A program made the position numbers and the translations under genes. The notes beneath the pieces were generated by a model. The model ran no database searches, was not told where the DNA came from, and saw nothing but the letters and a program-made list of their open reading frames with translations. A stretch of 57,578 nucleotides of DNA from Rhodobacter sp. CACIA14H1 (lineage in GTDB: Bacteria > Pseudomonadota > Alphaproteobacteria > Rhodobacterales > Rhodobacteraceae). The stretch lies in the NCBI GenBank assembly GCA_000500915.1, contig AYNO01000006.1:1-57578 (forward strand). Reading direction: 5' to 3'. Each line of letters starts with the position of its first letter. The first letter of the stretch is position 1. Below are positions 7,692 to 54,228 of the stretch, one piece after another.

Positions 7692-7744
7692 GTATGTACA
7701 CTTTGCGGTACGGAATGCGGCACAACACACGGCACCGGCACATC
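7692..7744 (+). repeat. three-box GGYAC element, copy 1 (diverged)
   Basis: Intergenic copy with GGTAC at 7707, GGCAC at 7719 and GGCAC at 7731, exactly 12 bases apart, preceded by ACTTTGC. It matches the two closer copies at 23204-23254 and 54177-54228 in spacing and in about two thirds of its bases. It lies between the lipoprotein stop (7793) and the DUF4405 start (7568). If translated it gives the pattern CGTxxGTxxGT seen in the other two copies. Nothing else was recognised in the gap 7569-7792. Confidence 0.7.
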
Positions 7745-7792
7745 CCGCCGGACCGCAGATTTCCGCCCTGATTCCAGAAGGTTAACGCCGCC

Positions 7793-8167
7793 TCAGAAGG
7801 CGCCCGCGTCCCAGTCCACCGGCGGCGGCGACACGAAGTCCCACGCCCGCCCGTTCCCCGAAACCTCCACCCGCGCCATCGGCGGCACCGCCCCCTCCGC
7901 GCCCAGCGCGGATGTCAGCTCCGACCAGAACTGCCGCAGCAGGTTCGGCTTCTCCACCACCGTCACGCGGTAGTCATAGCCCGGCCCGCACCCCTCCAGC
8001 CGCCCCGCGCCACCCGCCGCGGCCCAGTCCGCGCGGCACACCGTCCCGTCGCCCAGCACCACCGTCAGCACCTCTGCCGACAGCCGCGCCTCCTGCGGCA
8101 CCGCAGGCTGCTGCAACCCCGCACAGCCCGCCAGACCCAGCACCGCCACAAGACCCAAGACCCGCAT
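7793..8167 (-). CDS. small lipoprotein
   Basis: A 124-residue lipoprotein, presumably exported and anchored by lipid. The signal peptide MRVLGLVAVLGLAGC ends in a clear lipobox (LAGC) with the modified Cys at residue 15. The start at 8167 is preferred over an ATG three codons earlier because it gives the shorter, standard signal sequence. The mature part contains two further Cys (GTVCRADW, LEGCGPGYDY) that may form a disulfide, and ends with Pro-rich VSPPPVDWDAGAF. It lies 12 bases after the permease gene on the same strand, so co-transcription is likely. Function unknown. Confidence 0.8.
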   Translation of the reverse strand: MRVLGLVAVLGLAGCAGLQQPAVPQEARLSAEVLTVVLGDGTVCRADWAAAGGAGRLEGCGPGYDYRVTVVEKPNLLRQFWSELTSALGAEGAVPPMARVEVSGNGRAWDFVSPPPVDWDAGAF

Positions 8168-8179
8168 CCCGCCCACTCC

Positions 8180-9957
8180 TCACAACGGCCAGAAGACCGG
8201 GATCAGCGCCGAAGCCACCAGCCCCGTCAGGATGTTCAACGGTATCCCCACCCGCATGAAGTCCGAAAACCGGTATCCGCCCGGCCCATAGACCATCATG
8301 TTCGTCTGATACCCCACCGGCGTCGCAAACGCCACCGAGGCCGAGAACATCACCGCCACCACGAACCCCCGCGGGTCCACCCCCAGCGACTGCGCCAGTT
8401 CGATCACGATGGGCGTATAGATCACCGCCACCGCGTTGTTCGACAGGAATTCCGTCAGCACCAGCCCCAGGAAATAGACCGCAAGGATCATCAGGAACGG
8501 CGACAGCCCCGCCATCTGCGGCGCCACCGCATTCACGATCAGCTCCACCGCGCCGGACTGGTCCAGCCCCTCGCCCACGGCCAGCATGGCAAAGATCATC
8601 GCCATCAACCGCCCGTCCACAAAGGAAAAAGCCTCCTCCGCATCGACGCAGCGCGTGACCAGGATCAGCGCGACGGCCAGCAGCGCCAGCGCCATGATCG
8701 GCGCGATATCCAGCGCCGACAGCACCACGATCCCCGCCAGCGCCGCCAGCGCGATTGGCGCCTTGGACCGCCGGAACGGCTTGATCGACGGGCGCGTGAT
8801 GTCCACCAGATCCATATCCGCCGCCAGCCGCTGGATATCTTCGATGGACCCTTCCAGCAGCAGCGTATCCCCCACCCGCACCACCAGATCGTCCAGTTGC
8901 CGCCCGATATTCTGGTTCCGCCGGTGCGCCGCCAGCACATAGACGCCATAGCGCCGCCGCAACCGCAACTCGCCCAGCCGGCGCCCCTCCATCCGGCAAC
9001 CCGGAGAGATCAGGACCTCCACCGTCTCGGTCCGGGTGGATGACAGCTTGTCCACCAGATGCAGGTCCTTGCGCCCCTGCAGGCCCAGCAATTCCGTCAT
9101 CTCGGTCCGCAGCACCACGCGGTCCCCCGCCTCCAGCTTCACCGGCGCAAGGTCACGCCGCAGCGACGCATCGCCCCGCAGCACGTCGATCAGCCGCACC
9201 CCGTCACGCCGGAACAGATCGACCTCCAGCACCGCCTGCCCGATCAGCGGGCTGTCCTCGGGAATGGCGACTTCGGTGAAATACTTCATCTTGCGCCGGT
9301 CGCTCAGCAGCATCCCCATGCTCTGCCGCACCGGCAACAGCCGCTCTGCCGTCAGCGCAAGGAACCCCCCGCCACCACCAGCAGCACCAGCCCCAGCGGC
9401 GCGATCTCGAAGATCGAGAAATGCTCCAGCCCCTCCTTCGCCGCCACCCCGTCCACCAGCAGGTTGGTGGATGTCCCGATCAGCGTGATCATCCCCCCCA
9501 GAACGGTAATATAGGACAGTGGAATCAACAGCTTCGACGGCGCCGTCCGCAGCTTGGACGCAAGTTGCATCACCACGGGGATCATCACCGCCACCAGCGG
9601 CGTGTTGTTCATGAAGGCCGACGCCAGCCCGATCACCGCGAACAGCACGAAGATCGTCATGCGCGGCCGGTCGCCCGCATGACGCTCGGCCATCCGCACG
9701 ATCTCCTCGACCGCGCCGGTCCGGACCAGCCCGCCCATCACGAGGAACATCAGCACGATGGTCCATGGCGCCGCATTGGACAGCACCGCCACCCCGTCCT
9801 TTATCGGCAGGATGCCCGTGACGATCATCACCGCCGCGCCACCGATGGCCGTGACCTCGACAGGATAGGTCTCGCGCACGAACAGGACGAACATCACGAC
9901 AAGGACGGCCAGCGCCACCCAGGGTTGCCATTCCGCCGCCAGCTCGAAACCGAACAT
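8180..9957 (-). CDS. SLC13-type permease with TrkA-C domains, apparent frameshift
   Basis: An inner-membrane anion (dicarboxylate/sulfate-type) permease. From the ATG at 9957 it reads MFGFELAAEWQPWVALAVL and stays in frame through TLIGTSTNLLVDGVAAKEG. At a C6 run on the plus strand (9365-9370) the frame changes; restoring one G on the coding strand joins it to GFLALTAERLLPVRQ and the rest, giving about 592 residues, normal for the family. Two cytosolic TrkA-C (RCK) modules lie in the centre (ADLAPVKLEAGDRVVLRTE, LDDLVVRVGDTLLLEGS) between two permease halves, the second ending TPVGYQTNMMVYGPGGY. The loss is probably a sequence error, otherwise the gene is broken. Substrate not determinable. 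The lipoprotein follows by 12 bases. Confidence 0.85.
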
Positions 9958-9984
9958 ACCGCCTCCAGACGCCTTGAACGCGCT

Positions 9985-10917
9985 TCAGGAGGCCACGGTT
10001 GCCTCCCGCCCCGCCCTCTCGCGCGGGCTGACCAATGCCACACCCGACAGAAGCAAAACAAGCGCAAGCCACAGAGAAGGAGAAAATCGTTCTCCCAGCA
10101 GCAGCATCGCCCAGAAAATTCCCGCTCCCGTCACGATATAGGAACATTGTGAGGCAAACACCGCCCCGGCCCGGAACGCCAGCCACACATAGGCCGCGTA
10201 GATCAGCGCATGGATGGCCGAAGACCCGGCCAAAGCCACCTCCGCCCGCCCGAAATCCGCGAAGGGATCGAAGAACTGCCCCGTCAGCACGGCAACCGGC
10301 AGGCATCCCAGCAGCCCCGCCAGCGACGCGCCGAACATCGCCTGCACCGGCTCCATCCCTGCCGTCCCGTGCCGCGCCACGAACAGCCCTTCCAGCGCGT
10401 AACACAGCGGCCCCACCAGCGCGACGGGAAGGAACGCCACCATCCCCGCCTCCAGCACCGCGCCGGGCGCGGCCAGCAGCGACACCGCCGCCAGACCAAG
10501 GCACAGCCCCAGCAGCCGCAGCCAGCCGAACCGCTCCATCCCCAGCATCAGCGCCAGCGGAAAGGCGATCATCGGCACGGCGGAAATCACCATCGACATC
10601 ACCCCCGCCGGCAGCCGCGCCACCGACAGGTAGAAGGTCGCATTCGGGATCAGCGTCCCCAGCACCGCCACAACGCCATAGAACCGCAGCGCGGGCGCGG
10701 TGAAGACCAGCCCCTTCCCCCGCACCATCGTGACAGCCCCCAGCACCAGCACGCAGACCACCAGCTGCCAGAAGATCAGCCCGAAAGGCCCGTGCCCGTC
10801 CTGCGTGGCGATCTTGCCCAGCGGCTGCGTCGATCCCCACCCGATGCCGAGGCACAGCAGCACCCCCACATGGAACCACCGCCTGTCCGTCACGCCCCCC
10901 GCAGCGGCACCGCTCAA
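9985..10917 (-). CDS. EamA/DMT family transporter
   Basis: A ten-helix metabolite exporter of 310 residues with two EamA repeats (first from GIGWGSTQPLGKIATQDG, second from about residue 165). ASQCSYIVTGAGIFWAMLLLG and the final LVLLLSGVALVSPRE match the family pattern before the basic end. Its start (ATG 10917) overlaps the ymdB stop by four bases (ATGA), so it is translationally coupled to ymdB. It precedes the SLC13 permease by 27 bases, making a likely ymdB-exporter-permease-lipoprotein transcript. Substrate unknown. Confidence 0.88.
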   Translation of the reverse strand: MSGAAAGGVTDRRWFHVGVLLCLGIGWGSTQPLGKIATQDGHGPFGLIFWQLVVCVLVLGAVTMVRGKGLVFTAPALRFYGVVAVLGTLIPNATFYLSVARLPAGVMSMVISAVPMIAFPLALMLGMERFGWLRLLGLCLGLAAVSLLAAPGAVLEAGMVAFLPVALVGPLCYALEGLFVARHGTAGMEPVQAMFGASLAGLLGCLPVAVLTGQFFDPFADFGRAEVALAGSSAIHALIYAAYVWLAFRAGAVFASQCSYIVTGAGIFWAMLLLGERFSPSLWLALVLLLSGVALVSPRERAGREATVAS

Positions 10918-11726
10918 GGCGCACTCTCCTGCAACCTTCCACCCACCCGCACGGGGACGATCCGCGTGGCCTTGCCCGTCCGGTCCTCCGTCTCGACAAA
11001 GACGCCCGACAGCGTCGCCTCGCCCGCCGCCGGCTCGAACCGCCCCTTGGCCATGCCGGTCACGAACCGCCGCAACGGCTCCATCTTCTCCATCCCGATG
11101 ACGCTGTCATAGTCGCCGCACATGCCCGCATCCGACAGATAGGCCGTGCCGCCCTTCAGGATCATCGCATCCGCCGTCGGCACATGGGTATGCGTGCCCA
11201 CCACCAGCGACGCCTGACCGTCGCACCAATGGCCCATCCCCATCTTCTCGGACGTGGCCTCGGCATGGACATCCACCACCGCCGCCTGCACCGCAGCGCC
11301 AAGGGCATGGGCCTTCAGCACCCCCTCGATGGCGGAAAACGGGTCATCGAAGGGCCGCTTCATGAACACCTGACCCAGCACCTGCGCCACCAGCACCTTG
11401 CGCCCCTGCGTCGCGGTGAACACCCGCCACCCCTTGCCGGGCGCGACCTTGGAAAAGTTGATGGGCCGGATGATCCGCGGCTCGGTCTCGATGAAGGACA
11501 GCATGTCCTTCTGGTCGAAGGCATGATCCCCCAGCGTGATGCAATCCGCCCCCGCCGCCAGCAACAGCTTCGCATGTTCCGGTGTCAGCCCCGCGCCGCT
11601 GGACGCGTTCTCGCCGTTCACCACCACGAAATCGAGCGCCCAATCCGCCCGCAACGCAGGCAGCCGCGCGGTCACCGCCGCACGCCCCGCCCGCCCCATC
11701 ACATCGCCAAGGAAAAGGATACGCAT
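10914..11726 (-). CDS. ymdB: YmdB family metallophosphoesterase
   Basis: A 270-residue cytosolic metallophosphoesterase with 2',3'-cyclic-nucleotide phosphodiesterase activity in characterised relatives. The dimetal motifs are intact: MRILFLGDVMGRAGR at the N-terminus, VVVNGENAS with the metal-bridging Asn and Glu, TLGDHAFDQKD, VDVHAEATSEK and VGTHTHVPTAD. The length is typical. It leads a minus-strand unit with the EamA exporter (ATGA overlap at 10914-10917). In many relatives a 5-formyltetrahydrofolate cyclo-ligase gene lies directly upstream; here the 171-base gap to the divergent exporter holds no such gene. Confidence 0.94.
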   Translation of the reverse strand: MRILFLGDVMGRAGRAAVTARLPALRADWALDFVVVNGENASSGAGLTPEHAKLLLAAGADCITLGDHAFDQKDMLSFIETEPRIIRPINFSKVAPGKGWRVFTATQGRKVLVAQVLGQVFMKRPFDDPFSAIEGVLKAHALGAAVQAAVVDVHAEATSEKMGMGHWCDGQASLVVGTHTHVPTADAMILKGGTAYLSDAGMCGDYDSVIGMEKMEPLRRFVTGMAKGRFEPAAGEATLSGVFVETEDRTGKATRIVPVRVGGRLQESAP

Positions 11727-11897
11727 CCCCCCGCCCTACGCCCCGCGCAGGCAAACGGCAATCCCGTTCCCGACCCCCGCCGTCGGTTTCCATCCCCCCG
11801 CCGCCGGACCGTTTTCCGTGCAACCCCACCTTGCACCCGACGTCCGCGCGGTCCATTACGTTACCGCTCCCATATCGTGCGCCCGAAGGCTCCGCCC

Positions 11898-12869
11898 ATG
11901 ACCAGCTCCAGCTCCAACCTCAAGGGGGCCGCCCTGTCGCTTGCCGCTTTCGGCGTCTATGCGACCCATGACGTCGTCGTGAAATTCCTTGGCGGCAGCT
12001 ACAACGCCGTCCAGATCATCTTCTTCTCCGGCCTGCTGTCCTTCCCGCTGGTCACGGCCATGCTCCTGTCCGACAGGCGCGACGAAAACCTCGTCCCCCG
12101 CCACCCGTGGTGGAGCCTTGCCCGCGCCGTCTCTGCCGTCCTGACCGGCGTGGCAGGCTTCTTCGCCTTCTCGCAACTGCCCATGGCACAGGCCTATGCC
12201 ATCTTCTTCGCCATGCCGCTGCTGATCACCGTCATGGCCATCCCGATGCTGGGCGAACGCGTCGGCGCAAGGCGCGGCATGGCGGTCCTCGTGGGCCTGC
12301 TCGGCGTCCTCGTCGTCCTCCGCCCCGGCGAGGCCGACCTTGGCCTCGGCCACCTCGCCGCGCTGTCGGCCGCCGTCACCGGCGCACTCACCTCCGTCAT
12401 CGTGCGCAAGATCGGGGCCGAGGAACGCTCTGCCGTCCTGATGATCTACCCCATGCTCGGCAACGTGCTGGCGATGGGGGCCGTCCTGCCCTTCGTCTAT
12501 GAACCCATGCCCGTCACCCATCTGGGCCTGATGTGCATCATCGCGCTCTTCGGCTTCATCGGCGGGCTTCTGGTCATCAAGGCCTACCGCACCGCCCCCG
12601 CCGTCATCGTGGCACCGATGCAATATTCCCAGATCCTCTGGGCCGCCCTCTATGGCTGGCTGCTCTTCGGCGAATCGATCGACCTCTACACCGCCATCGG
12701 ATCGGCCATCATCATCGCCTCGGGCATCTACATCGTCCTGCGGGAAGGCAAACCCAGCGTGTCGGAAAACCGCCCCGTCTCCTCCACGAAAAGCCGCCCC
12801 GAAACCGGCGCCATGCCCCGCGTCAGCGTGATGATGAGCCGGATGGGCATTCCCGAACGGCAGGATTGA
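11898..12869 (+). CDS. EamA/DMT family transporter
   Basis: A 323-residue inner-membrane exporter. The start at 11898 (MTSSSSNLKGAALSLAAFG) follows a gap shared with divergent ymdB. Ten helices in two EamA repeats are visible, with VYATHDVVVKFLGG in the first and SQILWAALYGWLLFGESIDL in the second; IASGIYIVLREGK closes the membrane part. An unusual cytosolic tail of about 45 residues follows (SENRPVSSTKSRPETGAMPR). It ends 35 bases before a hairpin and upstream of tRNA-Pro. Substrate unknown. Confidence 0.9.
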   Translation: MTSSSSNLKGAALSLAAFGVYATHDVVVKFLGGSYNAVQIIFFSGLLSFPLVTAMLLSDRRDENLVPRHPWWSLARAVSAVLTGVAGFFAFSQLPMAQAYAIFFAMPLLITVMAIPMLGERVGARRGMAVLVGLLGVLVVLRPGEADLGLGHLAALSAAVTGALTSVIVRKIGAEERSAVLMIYPMLGNVLAMGAVLPFVYEPMPVTHLGLMCIIALFGFIGGLLVIKAYRTAPAVIVAPMQYSQILWAALYGWLLFGESIDLYTAIGSAIIIASGIYIVLREGKPSVSENRPVSSTKSRPETGAMPRVSVMMSRMGIPERQD

Positions 12870-12903
12870 CCCGTCGCAACCCGCACCGCTTTTCCCCGCC
12901 CAT

Positions 12904-12928
12904 CCCCCTTGCAAATGCCGCAAGGGGG
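12904..12928 (+). terminator. hairpin between exporter gene and tRNA-Pro
   Basis: Nine-base arms CCCCCTTGC and GCAAGGGGG around the loop AAATGCC, 34 bases after the exporter stop. Only a weak T content follows, so it is a probable terminator that separates the mRNA from tRNA-Pro. Confidence 0.65.
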
Positions 12929-12949
12929 CTGTAACCCACCCCCCACGGT

Positions 12950-13026
12950 CGGAGCGTAGCGCAGCCTGGTAGCGCACCTGCTTCGGGAGCAGGGGGTCGG
13001 AGGTTCGAATCCTCTCGCTCCGACCA
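12950..13026 (+). tRNA. tRNA-Pro (CGG)
   Basis: A complete 77-base cloverleaf: acceptor CGGAGCG pairs with CGCTCCG, D-stem GCGC/GCGC, anticodon arm CCTGC-TTCGGGA-GCAGG with CGG at positions 34-36, and T-arm GGAGG-TTCGAAT-CCTCT. Discriminator A and an encoded CCA end at 13026. All stems are well paired. Confidence 0.97.
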
Positions 13027-13097
13027 GTAATCCCGCCCATTCGGAAAGATACAGATCCAACCCCGCAGGGGCAGCGGTCTGTCCGGCAGTATATCGG

Positions 13098-13170
13098 AGC
13101 GGCGGACCGGACTCGAACCGGCGACCTACGGACTGGAAAACCGGCGCTCTGCCGACTGAGCTACCGCCGC
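13098..13170 (-). tRNA. tRNA-Gly (TCC), atypical anticodon stem
   Basis: Folds into 73 positions: acceptor GCGGCGG/CCGCCGC perfect, D-stem GCTC/GAGC, T-arm GCCGG-TTCGAGT-CCGGT. The anticodon loop TTTCCAG puts TCC at 34-36 with A37, and discriminator U73 suits glycine. The anticodon stem CCGGT/TCCGT, however, has only three good pairs, with mismatches at 27-43 and 31-39, and the 3' end is followed by CCG rather than CCA. It lies three bases downstream of tRNA-Arg on the same strand and is probably co-transcribed with it. Functional status is uncertain. Confidence 0.75.
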
Positions 13171-13173
13171 ATT

Positions 13174-13250
13174 TGGCGCTCCCGGCAGGACTCGAACCTG
13201 CAACAGACCGGGTAGAAGCCGGATGCTCTCTCCAATTGAGCTACGGGAGC
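13174..13250 (-). tRNA. tRNA-Arg (TCT)
   Basis: A 77-base cloverleaf with acceptor GCTCCCG/CGGGAGC, D-stem GCTC/GAGC, anticodon arm TCCGG-CTTCTAC-CCGGT with TCT at 34-36 and A37, T-arm GCAGG-TTCGAGT-CCTGC, discriminator G and encoded CCA. One mismatch (27-43) in the anticodon stem. First of a two-tRNA unit on the minus strand. Confidence 0.95.
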
Positions 13251-13469
13251 AGAAATCAGCCCCGTCCTCGTCCCCTGTGAAGCAGCGTCATCGCCATGGG
13301 AAACCCCCGGTCATCCATGACACTGCTTAAACCACGCCCGTCCCGCCTGCAACCCTGACGTGCGCTTCGTGCGGAAACGCCCCGGGTCGGCGTTCCCGCC
13401 ACGACAGACCGGACGGCGATTGCCATTCCCCCGCCTACCCCTACCTTCCCCCCATCAAGGGCAGGGCCA
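13251..13469. other. intergenic gap upstream of the MoxR/VWA operon
   Basis: Holds no convincing ORF or RNA. It must contain the promoters of the minus-strand tRNA pair and of the plus-strand operon beginning at 13470; neither could be pinned to clear -35/-10 boxes. Confidence 0.4.
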
Positions 13470-14156
13470 ATGCTGATCGTCACCGAAGCCACCATCGCCA
13501 ACCGCGCCGCGCTGGAAACGCGCAGCCTGCCCAAGCGTTTCCTCGGCCGCGTGACGCTGTTCCCGAAGGGCGCACCCCTCACGCTCTGGCTCCGGCTCCT
13601 TATGGAAATCCAGCTCCTCCGCTACCTCGGTGCGCTGCTGCCCTTCGTCCTGATCCCCCTCGTCTGGCGCGACACCGCCCTGCCCATCTCGCAGGCCCCG
13701 CTCGTCATGCTCATCCTCATCGCGGGCGTGGAACTGAAACTCCTGCGCCTGTCGAAATCCGCCCGTGCCCGCCTTCTGACCCCGGACGAAGCCGCCCGCC
13801 GTCTGGACACCCTTGCCTTCCGCGCCCGCGCCTGCCTGCGCCGGATCGCCGCCCGCCACGGCCTGACCGAAGGCGAACTGCGCCTTGTCGTGGAACAGTC
13901 CGAACTCGCCCGCATCCCGCCCCTCACCCTCGTCTCGGTGCAGACCGACCGCCCCGAACCCCGCCTCCTGCCCCTTACGCCCGATGACCGCGCCCATATC
14001 ACCGCCACCCTCTTCGATGCCGGTTTCACCGAACGCCACCTGCACGCCGTGAACCAGCGCGAGGACCGCCACCTCCGCGACATCGCGCAGGAAGCCCGCG
14101 CCGTCTCTGCCCATTCCCGCCTTGCCGCCTTCCTCGAACAACGGGCCGCCGAATGA
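13470..14156 (+). CDS. membrane-anchored protein of the MoxR/VWA operon
   Basis: I do not recognise a named family. The 228-residue product has two adjacent hydrophobic helices at about residues 45-95 (LLRYLGALLPFVLIPLVW and APLVMLILIAGVELKLLRL), a basic N-terminal part before them, and a charged cytosolic domain of about 130 residues after them (FRARACLRRIAARHGLTEGE, ITATLFDAGFTERHLHAV). Its stop overlaps the MoxR start by four bases (ATGA), so the three genes 13470-16456 form one translationally coupled unit. Membrane recruitment of the MoxR-VWA machine is a fair inference from position, but there is no direct evidence for it. Confidence 0.72.
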   Translation: MLIVTEATIANRAALETRSLPKRFLGRVTLFPKGAPLTLWLRLLMEIQLLRYLGALLPFVLIPLVWRDTALPISQAPLVMLILIAGVELKLLRLSKSARARLLTPDEAARRLDTLAFRARACLRRIAARHGLTEGELRLVVEQSELARIPPLTLVSVQTDRPEPRLLPLTPDDRAHITATLFDAGFTERHLHAVNQREDRHLRDIAQEARAVSAHSRLAAFLEQRAAE

Positions 14157-16456: not shown

Positions 16457-16514
16457 GCCAACACACTAGGCACCCCGCCCCCCGCCCTGTATCAACGGCC
16501 CAAAGGGGGAACCC

Positions 16515-17207: not shown

Positions 17208-17231
17208 CCCGCTTTTCCCTGCCCGCAAATC

Positions 17232-17262: not shown

Positions 17263-17300
17263 GACGGCCAAAGCACACCGGATTCGCAAAGGCACCCCAG

Positions 17301-18257: not shown

Positions 18258-18259
18258 CC

Positions 18260-22970: not shown

Positions 22971-23050
22971 GATGGCCGCATCATCGCGCCCCGCGCCCCA
23001 AACTCTGTCCCGCCCGCGACCCCGCCACGCGCCATCCCCGACACCTCGCC

Positions 23051-23169
23051 CCTCACCCCGGCCCTCTCCCCGCAGGGGAGAGGGAGCAGCCCTCTTCCGT
23101 CCCGCCGCGCCGATGGACGAAGCGGGGCGCCCTCCCTCTCCCCCCCGGGGGGAGAGGGTCGGGGTGAGG
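23051..23169. repeat. REP-like nested inverted repeat
   Basis: Outer arms of 21 bases (23051-23071 and 23149-23169) are reverse complements with one mismatch; the left arm begins CCTCACCCCGG and ends CTCTCCCC. Each arm also forms its own short hairpin with adjacent bases (CCCTCTCCCCGCAGGGGAGAGGG centred at 23073; CCCTCTCCCC/GGGGAGAGGG centred at 23147). This resembles the widespread proteobacterial REP/BIME-type palindromes. Confidence 0.75.
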
Positions 23170-23203
23170 GGGTGAAAACCCTAACGCTCTCTCACGGCAG
23201 CGT

Positions 23204-23254
23204 CCGCTGCGTGCTGACAGTTTGCGGTACAGTTCGCGGCACAGAAGCCGGTAC
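23204..23254 (+). repeat. three-box GGYAC element, copy 2
   Basis: GGTAC at 23226, GGCAC at 23238 and GGTAC at 23250 are each 12 bases apart. The preceding CCGCTGCGTGCTGACAG is shared with copy 3; together 40 bases match with one difference. It sits about 70 bases upstream of the GlsB-type start on the same strand and in the same open frame, where it would encode CGTVRGTEAGT. Confidence 0.8.
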
Positions 23255-23321
23255 GCCGAAAACACTCCCCCGGTGCCCGAAACCATGCCATCCTGCACCC
23301 CCCGAAACAGCGCAGGCCCCC

Positions 23322-23564
23322 ATGCCCCTCCTCGTCACGATCGTCATCATCGGCGCCGCTGCAGGCTTCCTCGCCACCCGCTTCATGCAGGTCCGGACCG
23401 ACGTTCCCACCACCATCGCCATCGGCATCGGCGGGGCGCTCGTCGGTTGGCTCGCGCTCCGCTTCCTTGCCGCCGTCAGCGGCTGGGCAGCCATTTCCAT
23501 CGGCGCCATCCTCGGCGCGATGGGGCTGATCTGGCTCTGGCAGAAATATGCGGGCCGCGGCTAA
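23322..23564 (+). CDS. GlsB/YeaQ/YmgE family small membrane protein
   Basis: An 80-residue inner-membrane protein with three hydrophobic, glycine-rich helices (LLVTIVIIGAAAGFLATRFM, TTIAIGIGGALVGWLALRFL, AISIGAILGAMGLIWLWQKY), the pattern of the transglycosylase-associated GlsB family, often stress-induced. The ATG at 23322 gives the usual length, but the ribosome site is weak and the frame is open upstream to 23172, so an N-terminal extension running through the GGYAC element cannot be excluded. Confidence 0.85.
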   Translation: MPLLVTIVIIGAAAGFLATRFMQVRTDVPTTIAIGIGGALVGWLALRFLAAVSGWAAISIGAILGAMGLIWLWQKYAGRG

Positions 23565-44567: not shown

Positions 44568-44705
44568 GCGCAGCCGTTGCCCCTTTTCCACGTCCCGCCC
44601 TCCCGAAAAGAGGCGGACCCTCGCCGGTAATTACGGCTCATGACCGGAAACTTTGAACCCTTCGGGCCGGTTCCGTGTTGGTCCTGACAGAAAACGGAGG
44701 TTGCC

Positions 44706-44942: not shown

Positions 44943-45002
44943 CCCTCTGGCATTGCCGATCCGCTTCATGTCACATGCGCCCTGCGATCACAGGAGCCGT
45001 AA

Positions 45003-46968: not shown

Positions 46969-47083
46969 GGACTCACCGCTCGCCGGAACGCCCGGGGCTC
47001 GGCGCGCTCATGCCTGCTGGATGGCGGATAGGCAAGGGCGGACCATGGCGGGTGGCAGTTTGCTGCCCGCTTTGCCCTTTCCG

Positions 47084-48847
47084 TCAGGCGGCTTCGGTCT
47101 GGCCTGTGTCGCTGGCGGTCCAGCGCAGCATCACACGATCATGAAGCTGCACCACGGGCGCAGGCCGAAGCTCGGTCCGCGTGCTGAACAGGGCCGTACC
47201 GCTGGGCCGCGAAGACCAGGCGATGATCGCGGGCGCCAGCACCATGGGCAGCGCCACCGGCAGCAGCCATGGCACCAGCTCCGGCGAAAGCCATTGCGCC
47301 GTGCCGAGAACGACCGCGCCCGTCGTCACGATCCAGTGGGATGCCGCCCAGGCATCCCCGAAGGACAGCGTGCCGTCGCCCCGTGTCTGCGCCGGCCAGC
47401 CGCCATCCGCGCCGCGCAGCACCTGCAGGACCGACCGGGTCTGGAACATCAGAAAGACCGGCGCCGTGATGGACGAGAACAGCAGTTCGGCCAGAGTGGA
47501 CTGCGCCGCGCGGACTGCCCCGCCGAAACCGGCTGCCCGCCCCCGCAACACCGCATCCAGCAGGATCAGAAGCTTGGGCAGGAACAGCAGCCCGCCGATC
47601 CCGATCGCCAGCCCGAGCGCCTTCGATACCTGGCTGACCGGAATGACGGGGAACGGCCAGTATTCGATGGGGAAATAGTCGATCGGCGGCGCGAACAGCG
47701 GCGCGGCGATCGATGCGGCCAGGAAGGCCAGCCAGAAGCCGGGCGAGATATAGGCAAGTATCCCCTGCAGAAAGACGAACCGGCTCCATGGTTTCAGCCC
47801 CGGCGCCAGCAGCAGCCGCGAATGCTGGAGGTTGCCCTGGCACCACCGGCGGTCGCGCTTGGCGTGGTCGATGATGTTCTCGGGCGCTTCCTCGTAGCTT
47901 CCGGTCAGGTCATCATCCACCCGCACCGTCCAACCTGCCCGCGCCAGCAGTGCGGCCTCGACATAGTCATGGCTCAGGATGTGCCCTCCGAACGGCGGTT
48001 TGCCGGACAGTTCCGGCAAGCCGCAGCTTTCGGCAAAGGCCCGCATCCGGACGATTGCATTGTGGCCCCAGAACGGCCCCGTCCGCCCCTGCATCATCGC
48101 CAGACCGCGTGCGAAGATGGGCGAGTAGAATGCGCCCGCGAATTGCATCGTCCGACCGAAGCGCGACCTTGCACGGATGATGGTGGGCAGGGTCTGCAGC
48201 AGGCCCAGTTCTGGCACCGCCTCCATCCGGCGCACCATCTCCACCATCGTCGCGCCTTCCATCAGACTGTCGGCGTCAAGGATCACGGCATAGTCATAGG
48301 CCGCTCCCGCCCGCTTGATGAAATCCTCGATATTGCCCGCCTTGCGTCCCTTGTTGCTCGTGCGGCGCCGATAGAAGATTCGCCCCTCGCCATGCGTGTC
48401 GGCCAGCAGCCGCAGGAACCAGACCCGCTCGCGGGCGGCAACGCCATCGTCGCGCGTGTCCGACAGGATCGCAAAGTGGAACCGGTCGCCCCAGCCCGTC
48501 GCGCGCAGCGATGCATCCATCGCGGCGATCCGCGCGAATGTCGCGACAGGATCTTCGTTATAGACAGGCACCAGCACCGCCGTCATCGCACGGATCGGCC
48601 CCGCCGCACGCGGCACGGCAGGCGGGCGGCTTGTCAGACCGGCGAAGGCCGTGAACGCACCCCATGCCAGCCAGAAGGTGGACGCGAAGATCAGGACCGA
48701 TCGCAGGACGTCGAAGGCATCGAAACCGTCGGATGCCCCGAATTGCAGGAACACGATGAAACCAAGCCCGGCGGCAAGCAGGGAGGCCGTCAGGGTCAGG
48801 CTGCGCACCAGAACAACCCGGTGCCCGGAGGCGGCCCCGGCCGCCAC
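47084..48847 (-). CDS. opgH: glucan glucosyltransferase OpgH
   Basis: Inner-membrane family-2 glycosyltransferase that polymerises glucose from UDP-glucose for periplasmic glucans. 587 residues. Two helices at the N-terminus (VRSLTLTASLLAAGLGFIVF) precede the catalytic domain: AVLVPVYNEDPVATFARI, YAVILDADSLMEGATMVE (DxD), GHILSHDYVEAALLARAG (second acidic), and RRWCQGNLQH (the QxxRW-type motif). Several helices follow. The GTG start at 48847 lies three bases after the opgI stop and in the same frame as opgI. Shorter at the N-terminus than E. coli OpgH, whose extra cytosolic part may correspond to opgI. Confidence 0.95.
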   Translation of the reverse strand: MAAGAASGHRVVLVRSLTLTASLLAAGLGFIVFLQFGASDGFDAFDVLRSVLIFASTFWLAWGAFTAFAGLTSRPPAVPRAAGPIRAMTAVLVPVYNEDPVATFARIAAMDASLRATGWGDRFHFAILSDTRDDGVAARERVWFLRLLADTHGEGRIFYRRRTSNKGRKAGNIEDFIKRAGAAYDYAVILDADSLMEGATMVEMVRRMEAVPELGLLQTLPTIIRARSRFGRTMQFAGAFYSPIFARGLAMMQGRTGPFWGHNAIVRMRAFAESCGLPELSGKPPFGGHILSHDYVEAALLARAGWTVRVDDDLTGSYEEAPENIIDHAKRDRRWCQGNLQHSRLLLAPGLKPWSRFVFLQGILAYISPGFWLAFLAASIAAPLFAPPIDYFPIEYWPFPVIPVSQVSKALGLAIGIGGLLFLPKLLILLDAVLRGRAAGFGGAVRAAQSTLAELLFSSITAPVFLMFQTRSVLQVLRGADGGWPAQTRGDGTLSFGDAWAASHWIVTTGAVVLGTAQWLSPELVPWLLPVALPMVLAPAIIAWSSRPSGTALFSTRTELRPAPVVQLHDRVMLRWTASDTGQTEAA

Positions 48848-48850
48848 GGC

Positions 48851-49030
48851 CTAGTGACCGACCTTGCCCATACGTCCGGAACGCGGACGCAGGACGGCGA
48901 AAAGCCGCGCGGGCTGAACCGGCGGTTCAAGGCGCTGCACGGGCATGGCAAGCGGCGCATCGGGCAGGGCGCCCAGCTCTTCGGCCAGACGATCCAGGTC
49001 GAACTGTTCCGGCTTGGCGAGATCCATCAT
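48851..49030 (-). CDS. opgI: OpgI, small protein of glucan synthesis
   Basis: A 59-residue polypeptide between opgG and opgH. The ATG at 49030 overlaps the opgG stop (ATGA); an adjacent ATG at 49027 gives one residue less. Sequence: MMDLAKPEQFDLDRLAEELG, then Pro-rich basic LRPRSGRMGKVGH to the TAG at 48851. Knowledge: in Rhodobacter sphaeroides a third gene, opgI, lies between opgG and opgH, lacks an E. coli counterpart and is needed for backbone synthesis. The position, size and coupling here fit that gene. It stays in frame with opgH past TAG-GCC, so it could be a detached N-terminus of OpgH. Confidence 0.82.
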   Translation of the reverse strand: MMDLAKPEQFDLDRLAEELGALPDAPLAMPVQRLEPPVQPARLFAVLRPRSGRMGKVGH

Positions 49031-50640
49031 TTTGCGTTGATCCACTGATAGAGCCAGTTCTCGGTCAGACGGCGGTCATATCCAGCCAGATGCGCGGCCA
49101 ATTCGACCACCGCGCCATCGGCAGCAGAGATATCGATCACGAGCCGCCAGATATCCGTTCCCGCGATCTTTTCGAGAACCGTCCCGGTGATTTCACCATT
49201 CGCAATCGTCACCACAGGCTGGATGGCCGCATCCGGTTCCATCCCGCCGACAAGCCCGCCCTTGAAATCGACAACGAACTTGCGGGTTCCCTGCTGCGCC
49301 TCGACCCCGGCAAAACCGCCATGGCCCGACCGCGTTTCGAAAACATAGGCCAGCGGCTCTCCCACGTCATGGGCCAGGTCGCCCCAGTGCAGCCGATAGG
49401 CAAATTCGCGCGAGTCGCCCGCCTTGGCCGGAGCTTCGGGAATCCAGTAGGCGACGATATTGTCGTTGGCTTCCAGATCGGACGGTATCTCGACCAGACG
49501 CACATGCCCGTTGCCCCAGTCCCCCACCGGTTCCACGTCGAGAGAGGGGCGCCGCTCGTACCTTGCGCCGGTATCCTGATAGCTGTCGAAGGAACGATCG
49601 CGCTGATGCAAGCCGAAACGGCGCGGTGCGGTCTCGGCGAAGTAGCTTCCGGTCAGTTGCGGCGGATTGTTCAGCGGACGCCAGATCACGTCGCCGTCGG
49701 CGCGCAGGATCCGCAGCCCGTCGCTGTCATGAACATTGGGGCGGTAATCGTCGAACTCCGCGCGGTTCTTTTCCGAAAACAGGAACATCGATGTAAGCGG
49801 CGCGATGCCAAGCTCTGCCACGTCCTGACGGAAGAAAAGCCGGCATGTCACATCCATGACCGTTTCGGTTCCCGGCGTGATGACGAAACGGTAGGCTCCG
49901 GTCACGCTGGGGCTTTCCAGCGTTGCATAGACGGTGATGCTGTTTCCGCCCGCAACGTCCCGCTCCATGTAAAAGCGCGAGAAGCGCGGGAATTCCTCGC
50001 CCTGTGCCGTCGCAGTGTTCAGCGCCAACCCGCGGGCCGAGATGCCGTAGGCAGAATTGCGGCCCAGAGCACGGAAATAGGAAGCCCCGACAAAGGCCAC
50101 CAGTTCGTCCCACTTGTCCGGACGGTTCAGGGGGTGGTTCAGGCGGAACCCGGCCACGCCGGGCAGTTCCGCATGTTCCGGAACCCGTTCGACCAGATCG
50201 TTCAGGTACTCGAAATCATCCGTCGAAAACAGAAGTTCCGACGCCATCCCGTCCCGCACCTCGAACAGGCGCACCGGCTCGGGGAAGAGCCATCCCATGT
50301 GGAAAGCCGCGAGCCGGAAACGTGTCGGCTCGTCCGCCCAGCGGGACCGGTCGTCACGGAAACGGATCAGCCGGTAATCGTCATAGGTGAGCTCCCCGAG
50401 GAAACCTTCCGGCGGCGGTGCCGTGACATGCGGCTGCGCCGAGAGCGCACGCATCTCTTCGGCCAGCATGTCGAACGAGAATTGCTGCGCTGCCGCAACA
50501 GGAGCCGGCGCTTCGGCGTCTATTTCTTGCGCAAGGCCCCGGAAGGGCACGGCCACCAGCGCCAGAGGCATGGCAGCCCCCGCCACGTTCAGCAGGGCCC
50601 GACGCGTAAGCCGGGAGGAAACGGAGCCATCGATTGACAT
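49027..50640 (-). CDS. opgG: periplasmic glucan biosynthesis protein OpgG
   Basis: A 537-residue exported protein that shapes the glucan backbone, possibly by branching or release. The N-terminus carries a twin-arginine signal (SSRLTRRALLNVAGAAMPLA, RR at about residues 12-13), so export by Tat is expected. Family marks: FDMLAEEMRALSAQP, YDDYRLIRFRDDRSRW, HPLNRPDKWDELVAFVGASY, FFRQDVAELGIAPLTSMF and YWIPEAPAKAGDSREFAYRL. First gene of opgGIHC; its promoter should lie in the 363-base gap upstream. Coupled to opgI by ATGA. Confidence 0.95.
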   Translation of the reverse strand: MSIDGSVSSRLTRRALLNVAGAAMPLALVAVPFRGLAQEIDAEAPAPVAAAQQFSFDMLAEEMRALSAQPHVTAPPPEGFLGELTYDDYRLIRFRDDRSRWADEPTRFRLAAFHMGWLFPEPVRLFEVRDGMASELLFSTDDFEYLNDLVERVPEHAELPGVAGFRLNHPLNRPDKWDELVAFVGASYFRALGRNSAYGISARGLALNTATAQGEEFPRFSRFYMERDVAGGNSITVYATLESPSVTGAYRFVITPGTETVMDVTCRLFFRQDVAELGIAPLTSMFLFSEKNRAEFDDYRPNVHDSDGLRILRADGDVIWRPLNNPPQLTGSYFAETAPRRFGLHQRDRSFDSYQDTGARYERRPSLDVEPVGDWGNGHVRLVEIPSDLEANDNIVAYWIPEAPAKAGDSREFAYRLHWGDLAHDVGEPLAYVFETRSGHGGFAGVEAQQGTRKFVVDFKGGLVGGMEPDAAIQPVVTIANGEITGTVLEKIAGTDIWRLVIDISAADGAVVELAAHLAGYDRRLTENWLYQWINAK

Positions 50641-51003
50641 AGAAGCCTATAACCCAACGGTTTTCCAACGCGCACGACACCTGCGCGACTCAGCGCGGGA
50701 TATAGGTTAGAGGTGAAGCGGACTGCAAGGAGGCTTCAACCGGCCGTGATCGGGACGGCACCATTTCGCCGCCGCTTTGCAGCGCCTGCCCCTTTTTTGC
50801 ACGATGGGCCATGCTGCAGATGCAAAAGACAGGCGGCCCTGATCTGTGCCCTCCGACAATACCCCCCGGCAGCCTGCTACTTCTGCCCCTTCGTCCGAAC
50901 GAAAGGGATGTGATACATCCTTTAGATTGCATTTACCGACTAACCCCGTCGGGCTAGTTCCCTCCGAAAGCAATCATCCCGGCAGAGGGATACGGGACAG
51001 GGC
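50641..51003. other. 363-base divergent gap between opgG and the sensor kinase
   Basis: Contains no convincing gene. It must hold both promoters. Notable are a perfect inverted repeat GGATGT-GAT-ACATCC at 50906-50920 and a weak hairpin ACTAACCC-CGTC-GGGCTAGT at 50939-50958, both nearer the sensor-kinase start. Small ORFs crossing the gap look like shadows. Confidence 0.5.
50906..50920. promoter_or_regulatory. inverted repeat GGATGT-GAT-ACATCC
   Basis: Six-base perfect arms with a three-base centre, 84 bases upstream of the sensor kinase and 266 from opgG. The spacing would suit binding by a dimeric regulator. No T-run, so not a terminator. The protein that would bind is unknown. Confidence 0.4.
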
Positions 51004-53541
51004 ATGCGGACGGATGTTCACGCTGCGGCTCGCGGGCCGGAAACGCTCTTTGCGGAGATCGCGGAGCCACGTCTAGCCTATGTGGTCCAAAGTCTGAACA
51101 CCGCTCCGATGCGGACCTCGCTCGCCTTCGGGGCGATCGTGGCCGCGTTCACGACACTTCTCGCGCTCAGCCAAGCCCATGCGCCCGGCAATGGCGCACT
51201 GATCGACCTCCTGCCAAGCGAAACCGCCTTCGCACTGATGCTTGGCCTTGCGGTCTTTCCGTTGCGGCTGATTACGGTCCCCCTTCTGACTTACCTGGTC
51301 TGCTTCTCGCTCGGTTTCGGACTGCGCCTCTGGCTCGAGGATGACTACCTGCCGGCAGGGATCGCGCCTTATACCATCTTCTGGACGGCGCTTGTTCTGA
51401 ACGCCCTTCCCGCAATCGCCGCGGCCATCATCGGGCGGGCCGTCGCCGGGCGGGCAAGACCGGGGGCACTCGGCGACGTGCTTCTGTCGCTGGCATCGAC
51501 GGTCGCCTATATCGTCATTGCCGGCGCTTTGGTCGCAGGCATGGTGACCTTCGTCTATCCTCCCGACCTGCCGGACGAGTCGCTCGGGTTGCTGGGCATC
51601 CTTGGCGCGGGGTTCATCCGCGTCATCCGCATCGGCCTGTGCGGCGCAGTGCTGGTGCTTTACCTTCTGGACCGGCCCGACCGCAGGAACATGGGCGTTG
51701 CGCTTCTGGTGCTGCCGCTGTTCATCGGGCTGGCGGTGCTGCGCAATCTCGGCGTTGCCGGGCATCCGCCTCTGGACGTGGAACTCTTGGCCCTCGCCGT
51801 GGCGCTGCTCGCGCCGCCCTATGCGGCGATCTTTGCGAATATCGTCGGCGTTTCCGCCTATGTGATGCTGACGGGTGAATTCCTCGTGCAGCATCCTGTT
51901 CCATCGGCCGATGTGATGAAACTGGAACTCGCCTCGGTGTTCCTGCTGGCCCTCGATTACCTGCTCCTGCTGCAGCGCCATATCGCGCAGGCCGAACTCG
52001 AGAGAAACCGTGCCACCATCGACAGGATGATCCGCATCCGTGCGCTGGCGACGATCGGCTACTTCGTCATGGACACGCGCACCGGGCGGGTGCGTCTCGA
52101 CGCCGTCGCGGCCGAGATACTGGGAACGCCCGCCTCCTTCACCATCGCGGACTTCATCGGACGGGTGCGCCCTGAGGACAGGCCCATCATAGAGGCATCG
52201 ATCGCCGACATATCCGAGGAGTCGCGGACACTCTCCTTCCTCTTTTCCAGCAACGGAATGTGGAACGAGACGGCCGAAACCCGCTACGTCACCGTCCACG
52301 CCTGGTACGAGGACCGCTCGGGCAGCCGATCGCTGGCCTATGGTGCGCTGATCGACCTGACACGGGATCACCGCAGGGAACAGGACCTTGCCGCAGCACT
52401 GGCCAGCCTGTCCGAACAGCAGAACCGGCAGACGCAGATGTTCTCGATCGTGTCGCACGAGTTGCGGACGCCCGCATCGGTCATCTCGATGCTGCTGGAG
52501 GAACTGGAAGGCGGCGCCTCCTGGCAGGAGATGGGGCCGCGACTGCGGGCGGTCAGCGACCAGCTGCTTTCCGTGCTGGCGGACATGCGGCAGACGGTGC
52601 GCCCCGAACAGAACCTGCCCATCAGGCTGGAAACCCTGCGCCCGCAAGAGGTTGCGGAAACGGTGCGCAACACGTTCGCGCTCATGGCAGGGGCGAGGCA
52701 GATCGACCTGGACCTCGACCTTGCACCGGAGGCCTGGCAGTTGCGGGTTTCGGACAGGGTGCGGCTGGTGCAGGCGCTGTCCAATCTGGTGAAGAACGCG
52801 ATCCTTCATGCCGAGTGCCGCCGGATCACCATCGGCTATTCCGAGACAGCGGTCGGGGCCGGGGTCATGGGGCAGTGGCGGGTGTCGGATGACGGGCGCG
52901 GGGTTCCGCCGGAGGCGCAGGCGACGCTGTTCGACGCCTTCCGGCGCGGCGCGGGCACATCGACCACCCGGACGGACGGGTCGGGGCTGGGCCTGTATGT
53001 CACCAAATCTTCGGTCGAATTGCTTTCGGGAACAGTCACTTACCAGCCCCGCGCGGCAGGAGGATCCGTCTTCGTGATGCGGTTGCCCATGGCCCTGCCC
53101 GCCGAGAGCGAGGAAAAAGGGGCGCCGCGGCAGCGGGTGGATCTTGCCAGCCTGAAGGCGATGACAGTCCTGATAGCCGAGGACAGCGACCTTATCGGCG
53201 AATTGCTGGTGGCGCGTCTGCGGCGGGTGTTCGGGCGGATCGTCTGGGTGCGCGACGGGCAGGAGGCGCTGGCGGCGTTCGATGCGGAAGCAGCGGATAT
53301 GGTGTTGACCGACCTGTTCATGCCCCAGATGGGCGGGGATGACCTGACCGCGGCATTGCGGGAAAAGGGAGCGGAATGTCCGATCATCGGCATGACCGCC
53401 GCCGCCATCGGCGACGAGCGGGAGCGGTTCGAGGCGGCAGGGACCGATCGCGTGCTGACCAAACCCATCTCTACCGCGCAACTTATCGAGGTTCTGGAAG
53501 GGCTTGCAGGAAATGGCAGATCGCGGCCCGCGGCGGAATGA
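51004..53541 (+). CDS. hybrid sensor histidine kinase with polytopic membrane N-terminus
   Basis: An 845-residue membrane sensor. Residues about 35-325 hold roughly nine to ten helices (LAFGAIVAAFTTLLALSQA, LGLAVFPLRLITVPLLTYLV, IFWTALVLNALPAIAAAIIG), resembling MASE-type sensory modules. A PAS-like domain follows (LATIGYFVMDTRTGRVRLDA), then HisKA with the phospho-His at about residue 485 (SIVSHELRTPASVISMLLEE), a HATPase domain (LSNLVKNAILHAE, VSDDGRGVP, GSGLGLYVTKS) and a C-terminal receiver with Asp at about 770 (MVLTDLFMPQMGGDDL) and Lys in RVLTKPIS. The signal is unknown. There is no dedicated output gene next to it; the lone receiver at 44151-44567 is a possible partner. Confidence 0.92.
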   Translation: MRTDVHAAARGPETLFAEIAEPRLAYVVQSLNTAPMRTSLAFGAIVAAFTTLLALSQAHAPGNGALIDLLPSETAFALMLGLAVFPLRLITVPLLTYLVCFSLGFGLRLWLEDDYLPAGIAPYTIFWTALVLNALPAIAAAIIGRAVAGRARPGALGDVLLSLASTVAYIVIAGALVAGMVTFVYPPDLPDESLGLLGILGAGFIRVIRIGLCGAVLVLYLLDRPDRRNMGVALLVLPLFIGLAVLRNLGVAGHPPLDVELLALAVALLAPPYAAIFANIVGVSAYVMLTGEFLVQHPVPSADVMKLELASVFLLALDYLLLLQRHIAQAELERNRATIDRMIRIRALATIGYFVMDTRTGRVRLDAVAAEILGTPASFTIADFIGRVRPEDRPIIEASIADISEESRTLSFLFSSNGMWNETAETRYVTVHAWYEDRSGSRSLAYGALIDLTRDHRREQDLAAALASLSEQQNRQTQMFSIVSHELRTPASVISMLLEELEGGASWQEMGPRLRAVSDQLLSVLADMRQTVRPEQNLPIRLETLRPQEVAETVRNTFALMAGARQIDLDLDLAPEAWQLRVSDRVRLVQALSNLVKNAILHAECRRITIGYSETAVGAGVMGQWRVSDDGRGVPPEAQATLFDAFRRGAGTSTTRTDGSGLGLYVTKSSVELLSGTVTYQPRAAGGSVFVMRLPMALPAESEEKGAPRQRVDLASLKAMTVLIAEDSDLIGELLVARLRRVFGRIVWVRDGQEALAAFDAEAADMVLTDLFMPQMGGDDLTAALREKGAECPIIGMTAAAIGDERERFEAAGTDRVLTKPISTAQLIEVLEGLAGNGRSRPAAE

Positions 53542-54090
53542 TCAGTCTGTCCGGCCCCTTGCCGCTTCGGACCGGAGGATGGACATGAGTTCCGCCAGCC
53601 CCTTGCGATAGCGGTCGTCGAGGAGGTGGCCGTCGGCTTCGAAGGCGCTGCGGGACTGGGCGACCAGAACTTCGGGGCCGGAAATAAGCCTTGGCCTGAA
53701 AGGGGTTAGGCAGAGGCGGAGGCTGTATTGCGAGCGTTCGCCCCCGGCCCTGCCATCGGCGGCGGAGAGGATGGCCACCGGCTTGTCACGCCAGGCCGCG
53801 CCGGGGATCCGCGACACCCAGTCCAGCGCGTTCTTCAGCACGCCGGGAAGCGCCTTGTTGTATTCGGGCGTGGCGATGACGATGGCATCGGCGGCCTTGA
53901 TCTGGCCATGGAGGCGGATGGCGGATTCAGGGAATCCCTGTTCGATTTCAAGGTCTTCGTCGAAGAGGGGCAAGCGCAGGTCGGCTTCGGAATAGGCGGC
54001 ATCGCCGAAGGCGCGGCGGGCTTCGGCCAGCAGGAGCCGGTTGGTGGAGGCCGCGCGGAGCGCGCCGGGGATGCCGAGGAGGGTGAGCAT
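53542..54090 (-). CDS. NADPH-dependent FMN reductase family protein
   Basis: A 182-residue flavodoxin-like oxidoreductase. The ATG at 54090 (MLTLLGIPGALRAASTNRLL) gives the family N-terminus with the FMN phosphate loop; the open frame runs 24 codons further without matching sequence. IVIATPEYNKALPGVLKNAL is the central flavin/active motif. Members reduce FMN, chromate or quinones. It ends immediately before the converging sensor-kinase stop. A GGYAC element lies about 90-140 bases upstream on the same strand. Confidence 0.92.
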   Translation of the reverse strand: MLTLLGIPGALRAASTNRLLLAEARRAFGDAAYSEADLRLPLFDEDLEIEQGFPESAIRLHGQIKAADAIVIATPEYNKALPGVLKNALDWVSRIPGAAWRDKPVAILSAADGRAGGERSQYSLRLCLTPFRPRLISGPEVLVAQSRSAFEADGHLLDDRYRKGLAELMSILRSEAARGRTD

Positions 54091-54176
54091 TTCGGGTCCT
54101 GCTTCGGGTTCGTTCGGGATATCGGATCGGGCGGAAGGTATGGCGGGCGACGGCGGGCGCAAGGGGCGTCGCGGCT

Positions 54177-54228
54177 GTACCGGAGGTTGTGCCGCGAATT
54201 GTACCGCAAACTGTCAGCACGCAGCGGG
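54177..54228 (-). repeat. three-box GGYAC element, copy 3
   Basis: On the minus strand GGTAC (54201-54205), GGCAC (54189-54193) and GGTAC (54177-54181) are 12 bases apart; the 40 bases from CCGCTGCGTG differ from copy 2 at only one position. It lies upstream of the FMN reductase gene on the same strand. In translation it gives CGTIRGTTSGT, but this frame is not that of the reductase. Confidence 0.8.

Follow-up and report, generated by a model that had tools for sequence, protein, structure and literature searches.

Introduction

Repetitive extragenic palindromic (REP) sequences and bacterial interspersed mosaic elements (BIMEs), which go with REP-associated tyrosine transposases (RAYTs), are intergenic and favour the 3' ends of genes; DNA uptake sequences are single short words present in very many copies; architecture imparting sequences (AIMS) are octamers that become more abundant and more biased as the terminus is approached; and the Ter sites of replication fork traps all face one way within a replichore, those of RTP being paired half-sites. 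The FtsK-orienting polar sequences (KOPS) and the AIMS are strand-polar along the chromosome, with suites that are alike among close taxa (PMC5993296), and the Tus–Ter and RTP–Ter fork traps consist of polar, protein-bound sites restricted to particular clades (PMC6549158). The STAR elements of Staphylococcus are intergenic direct repeats of unknown function, with stable positions and a variable repeat number (PMC3532100), and the DNA uptake sequences of the Neisseriaceae form dialects, in which a dispersed motif shifts its spelling between species (PMC3630211). Here we analyze a stretch of 57,578 nucleotides from Rhodobacter sp. CACIA14H1 (contig AYNO01000006.1, referred to as the window), which contains three copies of an array of four short boxes set 12 bp apart. 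We establish the size of the family to which these copies belong, its four-box anatomy and its bias for intergenic and convergent positions, as well as its agreement with the local GC skew, its orthologous positions and orientations and its species-wide dialects. We know of no other kind of long, four-box, intergenic and strand-polar signal with species dialects, and a published description of such an array was not found among the matches listed in the literature on its sequence words, on Rhodobacter/Tabrizicola repeats or on oriented alphaproteobacterial repeats.

Results

The three arrays of the window

The pattern GGYAC-N7-GGYAC-N7-GGYAC matches the window exactly three times, at 7707-7735 (+), 23226-23254 (+) and 54177-54205 (-), hereafter copies 1, 2 and 3, and gave no match in 100 dinucleotide-preserving shuffles of it. 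The three arrays and their 12-base register, pointed out in an earlier note made from the letters of this DNA, are thus real. Two other statements of that note are borne out: all three copies are intergenic according to our own open reading frame (ORF) caller, which relies on codon usage and is no standard annotator, and copies 2 and 3 have 40 bases in common with a single mismatch, starting with CCGCTGCGTGCTGACAG. The note counted three boxes; boxes 1–3 are as described, but the count is one short, since a fourth, divergent box (box0) lies upstream of them in the same 12-base register, spelled GTATGTAC in copy 1 and GTGCTGAC in copies 2 and 3. It also regarded copy 1 as having diverged around the boxes. 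The difference in the flanks is genuine, and copy 1 appeared diverged because its left flank is of class C (defined below) while those of copies 2 and 3 are of class A. Finally, two copies do lie upstream of a start on the same strand, as the note had it: these are copies 2 and 3, in which 63 and 82 bp separate the end of the 60-bp core from the ATG at 23322 and the ATG at 54090, respectively. Copy 1 is flanked by two minus-strand genes. The features are as follows.

7680..7739, plus strand: copy 1, 60-bp core, class C, left flank CTGCCGGATTTT
7692..7699, plus strand: copy 1, box0 GTATGTAC, from the sequence and the alignment
7707..7735, plus strand: copy 1, boxes 1–3 (GGTAC 7707-7711, GGCAC 7719-7723, GGCAC 7731-7735)
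7639..7664, plus strand: copy 1, class C left module, TGTGCG...CGCAC plus GGTTAACCATG, with varied forms in other class C copies
7780..7789, plus strand: copy 1, GGTTAACGCC on the right, a TTAAC word that several copies of classes B and C also have on their right
23199..23258, plus strand: copy 2, 60-bp core, class A
23211..23218, plus strand: copy 2, box0 GTGCTGAC
23226..23254, plus strand: copy 2, boxes 1–3 (GGTAC 23226-23230, GGCAC 23238-23242, GGTAC 23250-23254)
23179..23187, plus strand: copy 2, left module CCCTAACGC, taken by eye as a reduced form of the CGTTAACCTTAACG of relatives
54173..54232, minus strand: copy 3, 60-bp core, class A
54213..54220, minus strand: copy 3, box0 GTGCTGAC
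54177..54205, minus strand: copy 3, boxes 1–3 (GGTAC 54201-54205, GGCAC 54189-54193, GGTAC 54177-54181)
54233..54242, minus strand: copy 3, left module CCGTTACCCC, with GTTAACCTTAACG at this place in several relatives (by eye)
53542..54090, minus strand: NADPH-dependent FMN reductase gene, marker of the site whose orthologues were compared in 14 genomes (the query protein extended to 54111, seven residues upstream of the ATG)

A large family found almost only in part of the genus

By its own terms, the earlier note would have been refuted had only these three copies existed, which is not the case. Searched with the same pattern, the whole assembly (G000, the genome of the window) gave 99 matches against 1 for a reversed-pattern control, at least three of the 99 resembling chance hits inside genes (two overlapping on C16 and one on C19). 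A profile built from the sequence of 26 copies of several species found matches in 11 of the 19 genomes of the genus: at least 114 in G000, at least 101 in G009 and at least 79 in G006 (two further relatives), at least 100 in the near-complete relative G002 and at least 98 in G011, with lower figures in G018 and G007 (at least 48 each), G017 (at least 37), G001 (at least 21), G005 (at least 18) and G014 (at least 8). These counts are lower bounds, since 150 candidates were scored per genome. The same profile found no match in the other 8 of the 19 genomes. Among 198 genomes of the family, searched with stricter filters, 8 matched and only G000 and G002 carry the array in number; each of the remaining six gave one or two weak matches, the best of which (G131) is a run of GCGGCACAGAC that looks coding by eye. 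The array hardly occurs outside the genus. The mean spacing is about one copy per 30-40 kb, in the gaps between genes.

One 60-base core used as a BLAST query gave no match at E 0.01 among plasmid and phage records. Two viral contigs that matched one pattern were set aside as long runs of 12-mers, by eye coding low-complexity repeats, and two further dialect patterns gave no match among viral contigs. Note that strict patterns were used to collect the copies of G000, G009 and G006 analyzed below. They yielded 82 distinct copies in G000 (at least 114 profile matches), 34 in G009 (at least 101) and 6 in G006 (at least 79), so that the dialect tables lean towards strict copies.

The unit has a conserved core of about 60 bp, in which box0, box1, box2 and box3 follow each other at 12-bp spacing, separated by freer spacers. 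Boxes 1–3 read CGGYAC; box0 is divergent, mostly GTxxxxAC followed by AG or AC. The sequence to the left of box0 defines three classes, A (ACCGCCCGCTGC), B (CACCGTGC) and C (CTGCCGGATTTT), and in many copies a TTAAC-type word stands about 20-40 bp further left, its fullest form in relatives being CGTTAACCTTAACG (by eye). Some class B copies (L048, L050, L059, L062, L067, L107, L108) form composites of about 150-170 bp with a right module GGATTAANGCAGCGCCCGCAA...CTTNGC and a left word of the GACTCACCCC type, again by eye. Among the 116 fetched copies, the commonest forms of spacer 1 are GAAT (24), GAAC (14), GTTC (13) and GTTT (13); the swapping of AA and TT as pairs hints at a DNA-shape requirement. 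Whole 12-mers are gained and lost: at one site G007 has one 12-mer fewer than G018, and one G000 copy has an extra box. Copies also occur in tandem, at spacings of 105 (four times), 106, 114, 115, 116 (three times), 126, 127 (twice), 128 (twice), 147, 149 and 163 bp, two loci entering in two registers. Most of these spacings are close to whole turns of 10.5 bp, and over 14 loci the helical phase gives an R of 0.73 at 10.5 bp and of 0.81 at 11.0 bp, a broad peak near 11.15 appearing when four spacings from the pattern lists are added. Since 11.0 bp fits slightly better than 10.5, the phasing of tandem copies is suggestive only.

The array follows the local strand skew

As a measure of polarity, we used the G-minus-C skew of third codon positions in nearby genes, signed by gene strand. 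The strand of the element is the C-rich strand for 83/83 copies in G000, 35/37 in G009, 6/6 in G006 and 8/9 in a first G002 sample, identical 60-bp cores being taken once. A gene-strand-balanced estimate, available for those of 137 copies with enough coding sequence on both strands, agrees in 90 of 93 cases, and in a larger G002 sample 38 of the 39 copies agree with the local skew. Gene direction cannot explain this polarity, because in the strongly skewed stretches of G002 the genes show no bias (371 on the G-rich strand versus 368). Along the G002 chromosome, the orientation of the array flips between 2.294 and 2.311 Mb, where the third-position skew climbs from -0.37 at 2.28 Mb to +0.28 at 2.32 Mb, with +0.11 in between; the skew switches back near 0.82-0.88 Mb.

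The window itself conforms to this rule: the bins around the plus-strand copies 1 and 2 have skews of -0.38 and -0.45, and the last bin, with the minus-strand copy 3, has one of +0.50. Between 24000 and 54000, the third-position skew goes from about -0.45 to +0.50 and is weak from about 30 to 54 kb, a change that possibly marks an inversion junction or an acquired stretch.

Position relative to genes

In G000, 79 of the 82 fetched copies are intergenic; 41 of these lie between convergent genes and five have one side unknown. Copies inside predicted genes were dropped before the analyses of reading frames, class alignments and neighbour proteins, and from the box tables. The G002 sample comprises 59 stretches, of which 51 lay on regular grids and 8 were selected because they held known copies, with tandem copies counted singly. 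Convergent gaps account for 13.2% of the gap length, yet they hold 18 of its 38 intergenic copies (p 4e-7, which understates the true value since both members of five tandem pairs were counted); 16 lie in tandem gaps and 4 in divergent ones, which represent about a third of gap length, and 1 copy of 39 is inside a predicted gene. The placement within convergent gaps is asymmetric: for the 41 G000 copies, the median distance to the stop codon is 34 bp from the right end versus 121 bp from the left (p 0.0008), and the right side is the shorter one in 15 of the 18 G002 copies. In the tandem gaps of G000, sense (15) and antisense (14) copies are about equally frequent, which argues that the signal lies in double-stranded DNA and not in an mRNA. 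The neighbours share no function that we could detect: of the 110 listed neighbour proteins of G000, 91 matched Pfam, with 125 families among them and none occurring in more than two proteins.

Some individual locations may be mentioned. In four genomes, the stretch coding for FtsK gamma has a copy within about 2 kb (G000 C29, G002 C1:2.927 Mb, G009 C11:671 kb and G011 C20:50.7 kb), and these are probably orthologous sites. Another G000 copy stands between dnaA and a gene that we take to be dnaN-like. Beside copy 2, the window has an unrelated imperfect inverted repeat at 23050-23172 (CCCTCACCCC...GGGGTGAGGGGG), and similar stretches occur near the copies at L023, L032 and L046. Further off, at 12950-13250, are three tRNA genes (Pro-CGG, Gly-TCC and Arg-TCT).

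Orthologous sites are kept and respelled

The site upstream of the FMN reductase gene was compared by eye in the 14 genomes that have a close homologue of this gene. Nine carry the array, each in a spelling of its own; of the remaining five, two lack it and three have an unrelated palindromic repeat. These three genomes (G003, G008 and G013; L122, L123 and L124) are array-free, and the palindromes form a run of the GGAATTTGCGTCAAATTCC type. Related palindromes occur near some G000 copies (L001, L021, L043), and none was found in the window with up to 3 mismatches. More generally, when copies of two genomes have a flanking protein in common, side and orientation agree in 25 of 25 pairs for G000 and G009, 21 of 23 for G000 and G002, 17 of 17 for G009 and G002 and 5 of 5 for G000 and G006, with 0 mirrored pairs, tandem copies entering more than one pair. 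The two deviating G000–G002 pairs, at 65% identity, are probably not orthologous.

The spelling of these sites behaves differently from their position. In 19 orthologous G000–G009 pairs, which were picked by hand and for which the best-matching copy was used at multi-copy loci, a choice that favours similarity, box0 differs in 18. The spacers show no memory of descent, with identities of 0.487 and 0.337 versus 0.486 and 0.379 in shuffled pairs; the left flank keeps such a memory (0.73 versus 0.59 shuffled), and so, slightly, does the right end (0.82 versus 0.74). Within a genome, the box0 dialect can depend on the flank class: in G000, 53 of 58 class A copies have GTGCTGAC and none of the 14 of class B does; in G002, GTGCCCAC is carried by 18 of 23 copies of class A and by 0 of 7 of class B; in G009 the dialect is alike in both classes (3, 6 and 3 copies were left unclassed in G000, G002 and G009, respectively). 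Such class-specific respelling favours selection by a changing reader.

Discussion

A putative polar protein-binding array

The explanation that we prefer, with a probability of roughly 0.45, is that the array is a polar protein-binding site which, through a putative clade-specific protein, signals or influences the direction in which replication or other traffic moves. We infer that the array binds protein, that its sites are kept and respelled through selection by a changing reader, and that it functions in replication or chromosome traffic. Four subunits or half-sites of the putative protein would sit on double-stranded DNA, 12 bp apart, and box0 together with the class-specific left flank would mark one end, which would make the bound complex directional. 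About four in five G002 copies point, from box0 to box3, from the skew-defined terminus to the skew-defined origin, so that a replication fork would reach box3 first. Such a complex would most likely read or act on the direction of traffic, be it a fork, a DNA translocase, a loop extruder or an RNA polymerase coming head-on. More tentatively, the arrays may represent a new system of replication-direction signalling in a clade of the Rhodobacteraceae, with more than 100 polar arrays and with reader and sites changing specificity together between species. If the reader exists, the orthologous sites in several dialects are a natural experiment on how a protein and more than 100 targets change together. 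The even distribution of G002 genes between the two strands also means that this bacterium may need another way of handling head-on encounters between replication and transcription.

Several observations weigh against this explanation. No reader protein for the array was found, and since 8 of the 19 genomes of this genus lack the array, it is not indispensable to the genus. As to polarity, 3 of the 38 concordant G002 copies have a local skew below 0.05 and carry little weight, and discordant copies do exist, namely one strong G002 copy (1.1056 Mb) and 2 of 37 in G009. The two global arcs of G002 are fitted by only 31 of 39 copies. All the off-arc copies (0.571, 1.008, 1.106, 1.708 (two), 1.764, 2.913 and 3.106 Mb) except that at 1.106 Mb have a reversed local skew too (weakly so at 0.571 and 1.008 Mb), a pattern that recent inversions would produce; an array can evidently persist with the wrong global polarity, at least temporarily. 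In G002, dnaA (2.754 Mb) and gidB (2.703 Mb) are not at the skew switch, so that the origin is placed by skew alone. A strand-biased insertion would yield an identical polarity. As to the dialects, the class strings were drawn from G000 copies pre-sorted partly by box0, which makes the link between class and dialect partly circular in G000 and leaves the G002 test as the only independent one. Lastly, a single spacer, AAACAGG, is present at 31 of 39 G002 copies, and this uniformity favours copying, by which it is more easily obtained than by point mutation and selection.

Alternative explanations

The chief rival is a mobile-element fossil: an element would have inserted with a strict lagging-strand bias before the species split, its copies being homogenised afterwards by gene conversion or re-copying. 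Agreement with the local skew is the trace expected of an insertion that targets single strands, the arrays prefer the 3' ends of genes, where insertions are tolerated, and tandem copies as well as gains and losses of 12-mers are present, so that, with the uniform spacer of G002, this history is a real if unlikely possibility. It is at odds with box0 dialects that stay distinct between flank classes in G000 and G002 despite a common core, which gene conversion should mix. Positions and orientations that are orthologous across species speak against it as well, as do the negative search of phage and plasmid records with one core and that for carriers of the REP/RAYT or IS200-like kind, in which a Y1/RAYT transposase scored above the cut-off in 0 of 19 genomes (one weak G009 match fell below it). 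The earlier note had offered a mobile-element remnant as one reading; in its simple form, this is weakened by the orthologous positions, the concerted change of dialect and the lack of such transposases above the cut-off in the 19 genomes.

Next comes a polar transcription roadblock or terminator, dependent on a protein, which would keep head-on transcription out of the co-directional neighbour. The strong preference for convergent gaps and the closeness of the right end to the stop codon of the opposite strand (34 versus 121 bp, and 15 of 18 copies in G002) are what it would predict. Nevertheless, the agreement with skew is equal in tandem and divergent gaps, sense and antisense copies balance in G000, and no significant RNA hairpin was found when three copies were folded; we thus consider a roadblock improbable. 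A still poorer case can be made for operators of a large transcription regulon, despite copies 2 and 3 of the window being among those upstream of starts and a 12-bp direct repeat being like operator arrays in general. Divergent gaps are depleted of copies in G002 (4 of 38 in about a third of gap length), the 91 neighbour proteins with Pfam hits have no recurrent family, and it is GC skew, not genes, that sets the orientation. Of the three readings in the earlier note, a regulatory array close to helical phase came nearest: the element has the look of a protein-binding array on double-stranded DNA, with the suggestive phasing of tandem copies given above, and does not resemble an ordinary promoter operator because about half of the copies lie between convergent genes and the neighbour proteins share no function.

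A strand polarity that extends over the whole chromosome also brings to mind KOPS or another known chromosomal guide site. The FtsK gamma domain varies at few positions among the 19 genomes, all of them outside the segment STSYIQRKLGIGYNKAA, which we take to hold the KOPS recognition helix. This segment is invariant in 19/19 genomes, 11 with the array and 8 without, and across dialects. As judged from these sequences, the array is probably not KOPS, because genomes with the array and genomes without it do not differ in the putative recognition segment; a four-box intergenic array of 50 bp is moreover unlike an octamer, and we hold this identification to be very improbable. Least probable of all are short peptide genes or a structured RNA. 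In the frame proposed by the earlier note, third codon positions are slightly more variable on average (0.69 versus 0.48 and 0.52 bits), as a peptide would have it, and one of six folds reaches a z-score of -1.9, as an RNA might. However, each of the three frames runs open across the boxes in 115 or 116 of the 116 copies, so that frames do not discriminate, and the spacer codons vary at all positions, swapping GAA, GTT and GTC and freely changing the amino acid; the peptide reading of the note is not supported. The other five folds (three copies, both strands) have z-scores from -0.7 to +1.5, box0 could pair with a later box at 3 of 5 positions at most in any of 116 copies, and Rfam, at its gathering score, returned only tRNAs for the window and 12 loci. 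A bias for the sense strand, too, is absent. Altogether, the interpretation given in the earlier note is partly supported.

Comparison with known systems

The array is like REP and BIME sequences in being intergenic and close to gene 3' ends, and differs from them in consisting of direct 12-bp repeats that are not palindromic and, for the three copies folded on both strands, in giving no significant fold. The array is like the uptake sequences of the Neisseriaceae in that its spelling differs between species (PMC3630211); unlike uptake sequences, it is made of four-box arrays that follow strand skew. With the STAR elements it has in common intergenic direct repeats, stable positions and a variable repeat number, but STAR repeats are GC-rich, 14 bp long and separated by spacers of at least 40 bp, whereas the array has a period of 12 bp and fixed boxes; the main text on STAR elements does not use the word 'orientation', and nothing like box0 or flank classes was seen in its account of them (PMC3532100). 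Like KOPS and AIMS, the array is strand-polar along the chromosome, and unlike these octamers it consists of four boxes spaced by 12 bp over about 50 bp, is intergenic, has about a hundred copies and comes in species dialects; a sub-sample inspected by eye, 31 chromosome positions of one G002 subtype, showed no rise towards the terminus. The Tus–Ter and RTP–Ter traps have about ten Ter sites, unlike the array, with its more than 100 copies spread over the genome. By analogy, the logic of the array nonetheless seems to resemble that of KOPS and of fork-trap sites.

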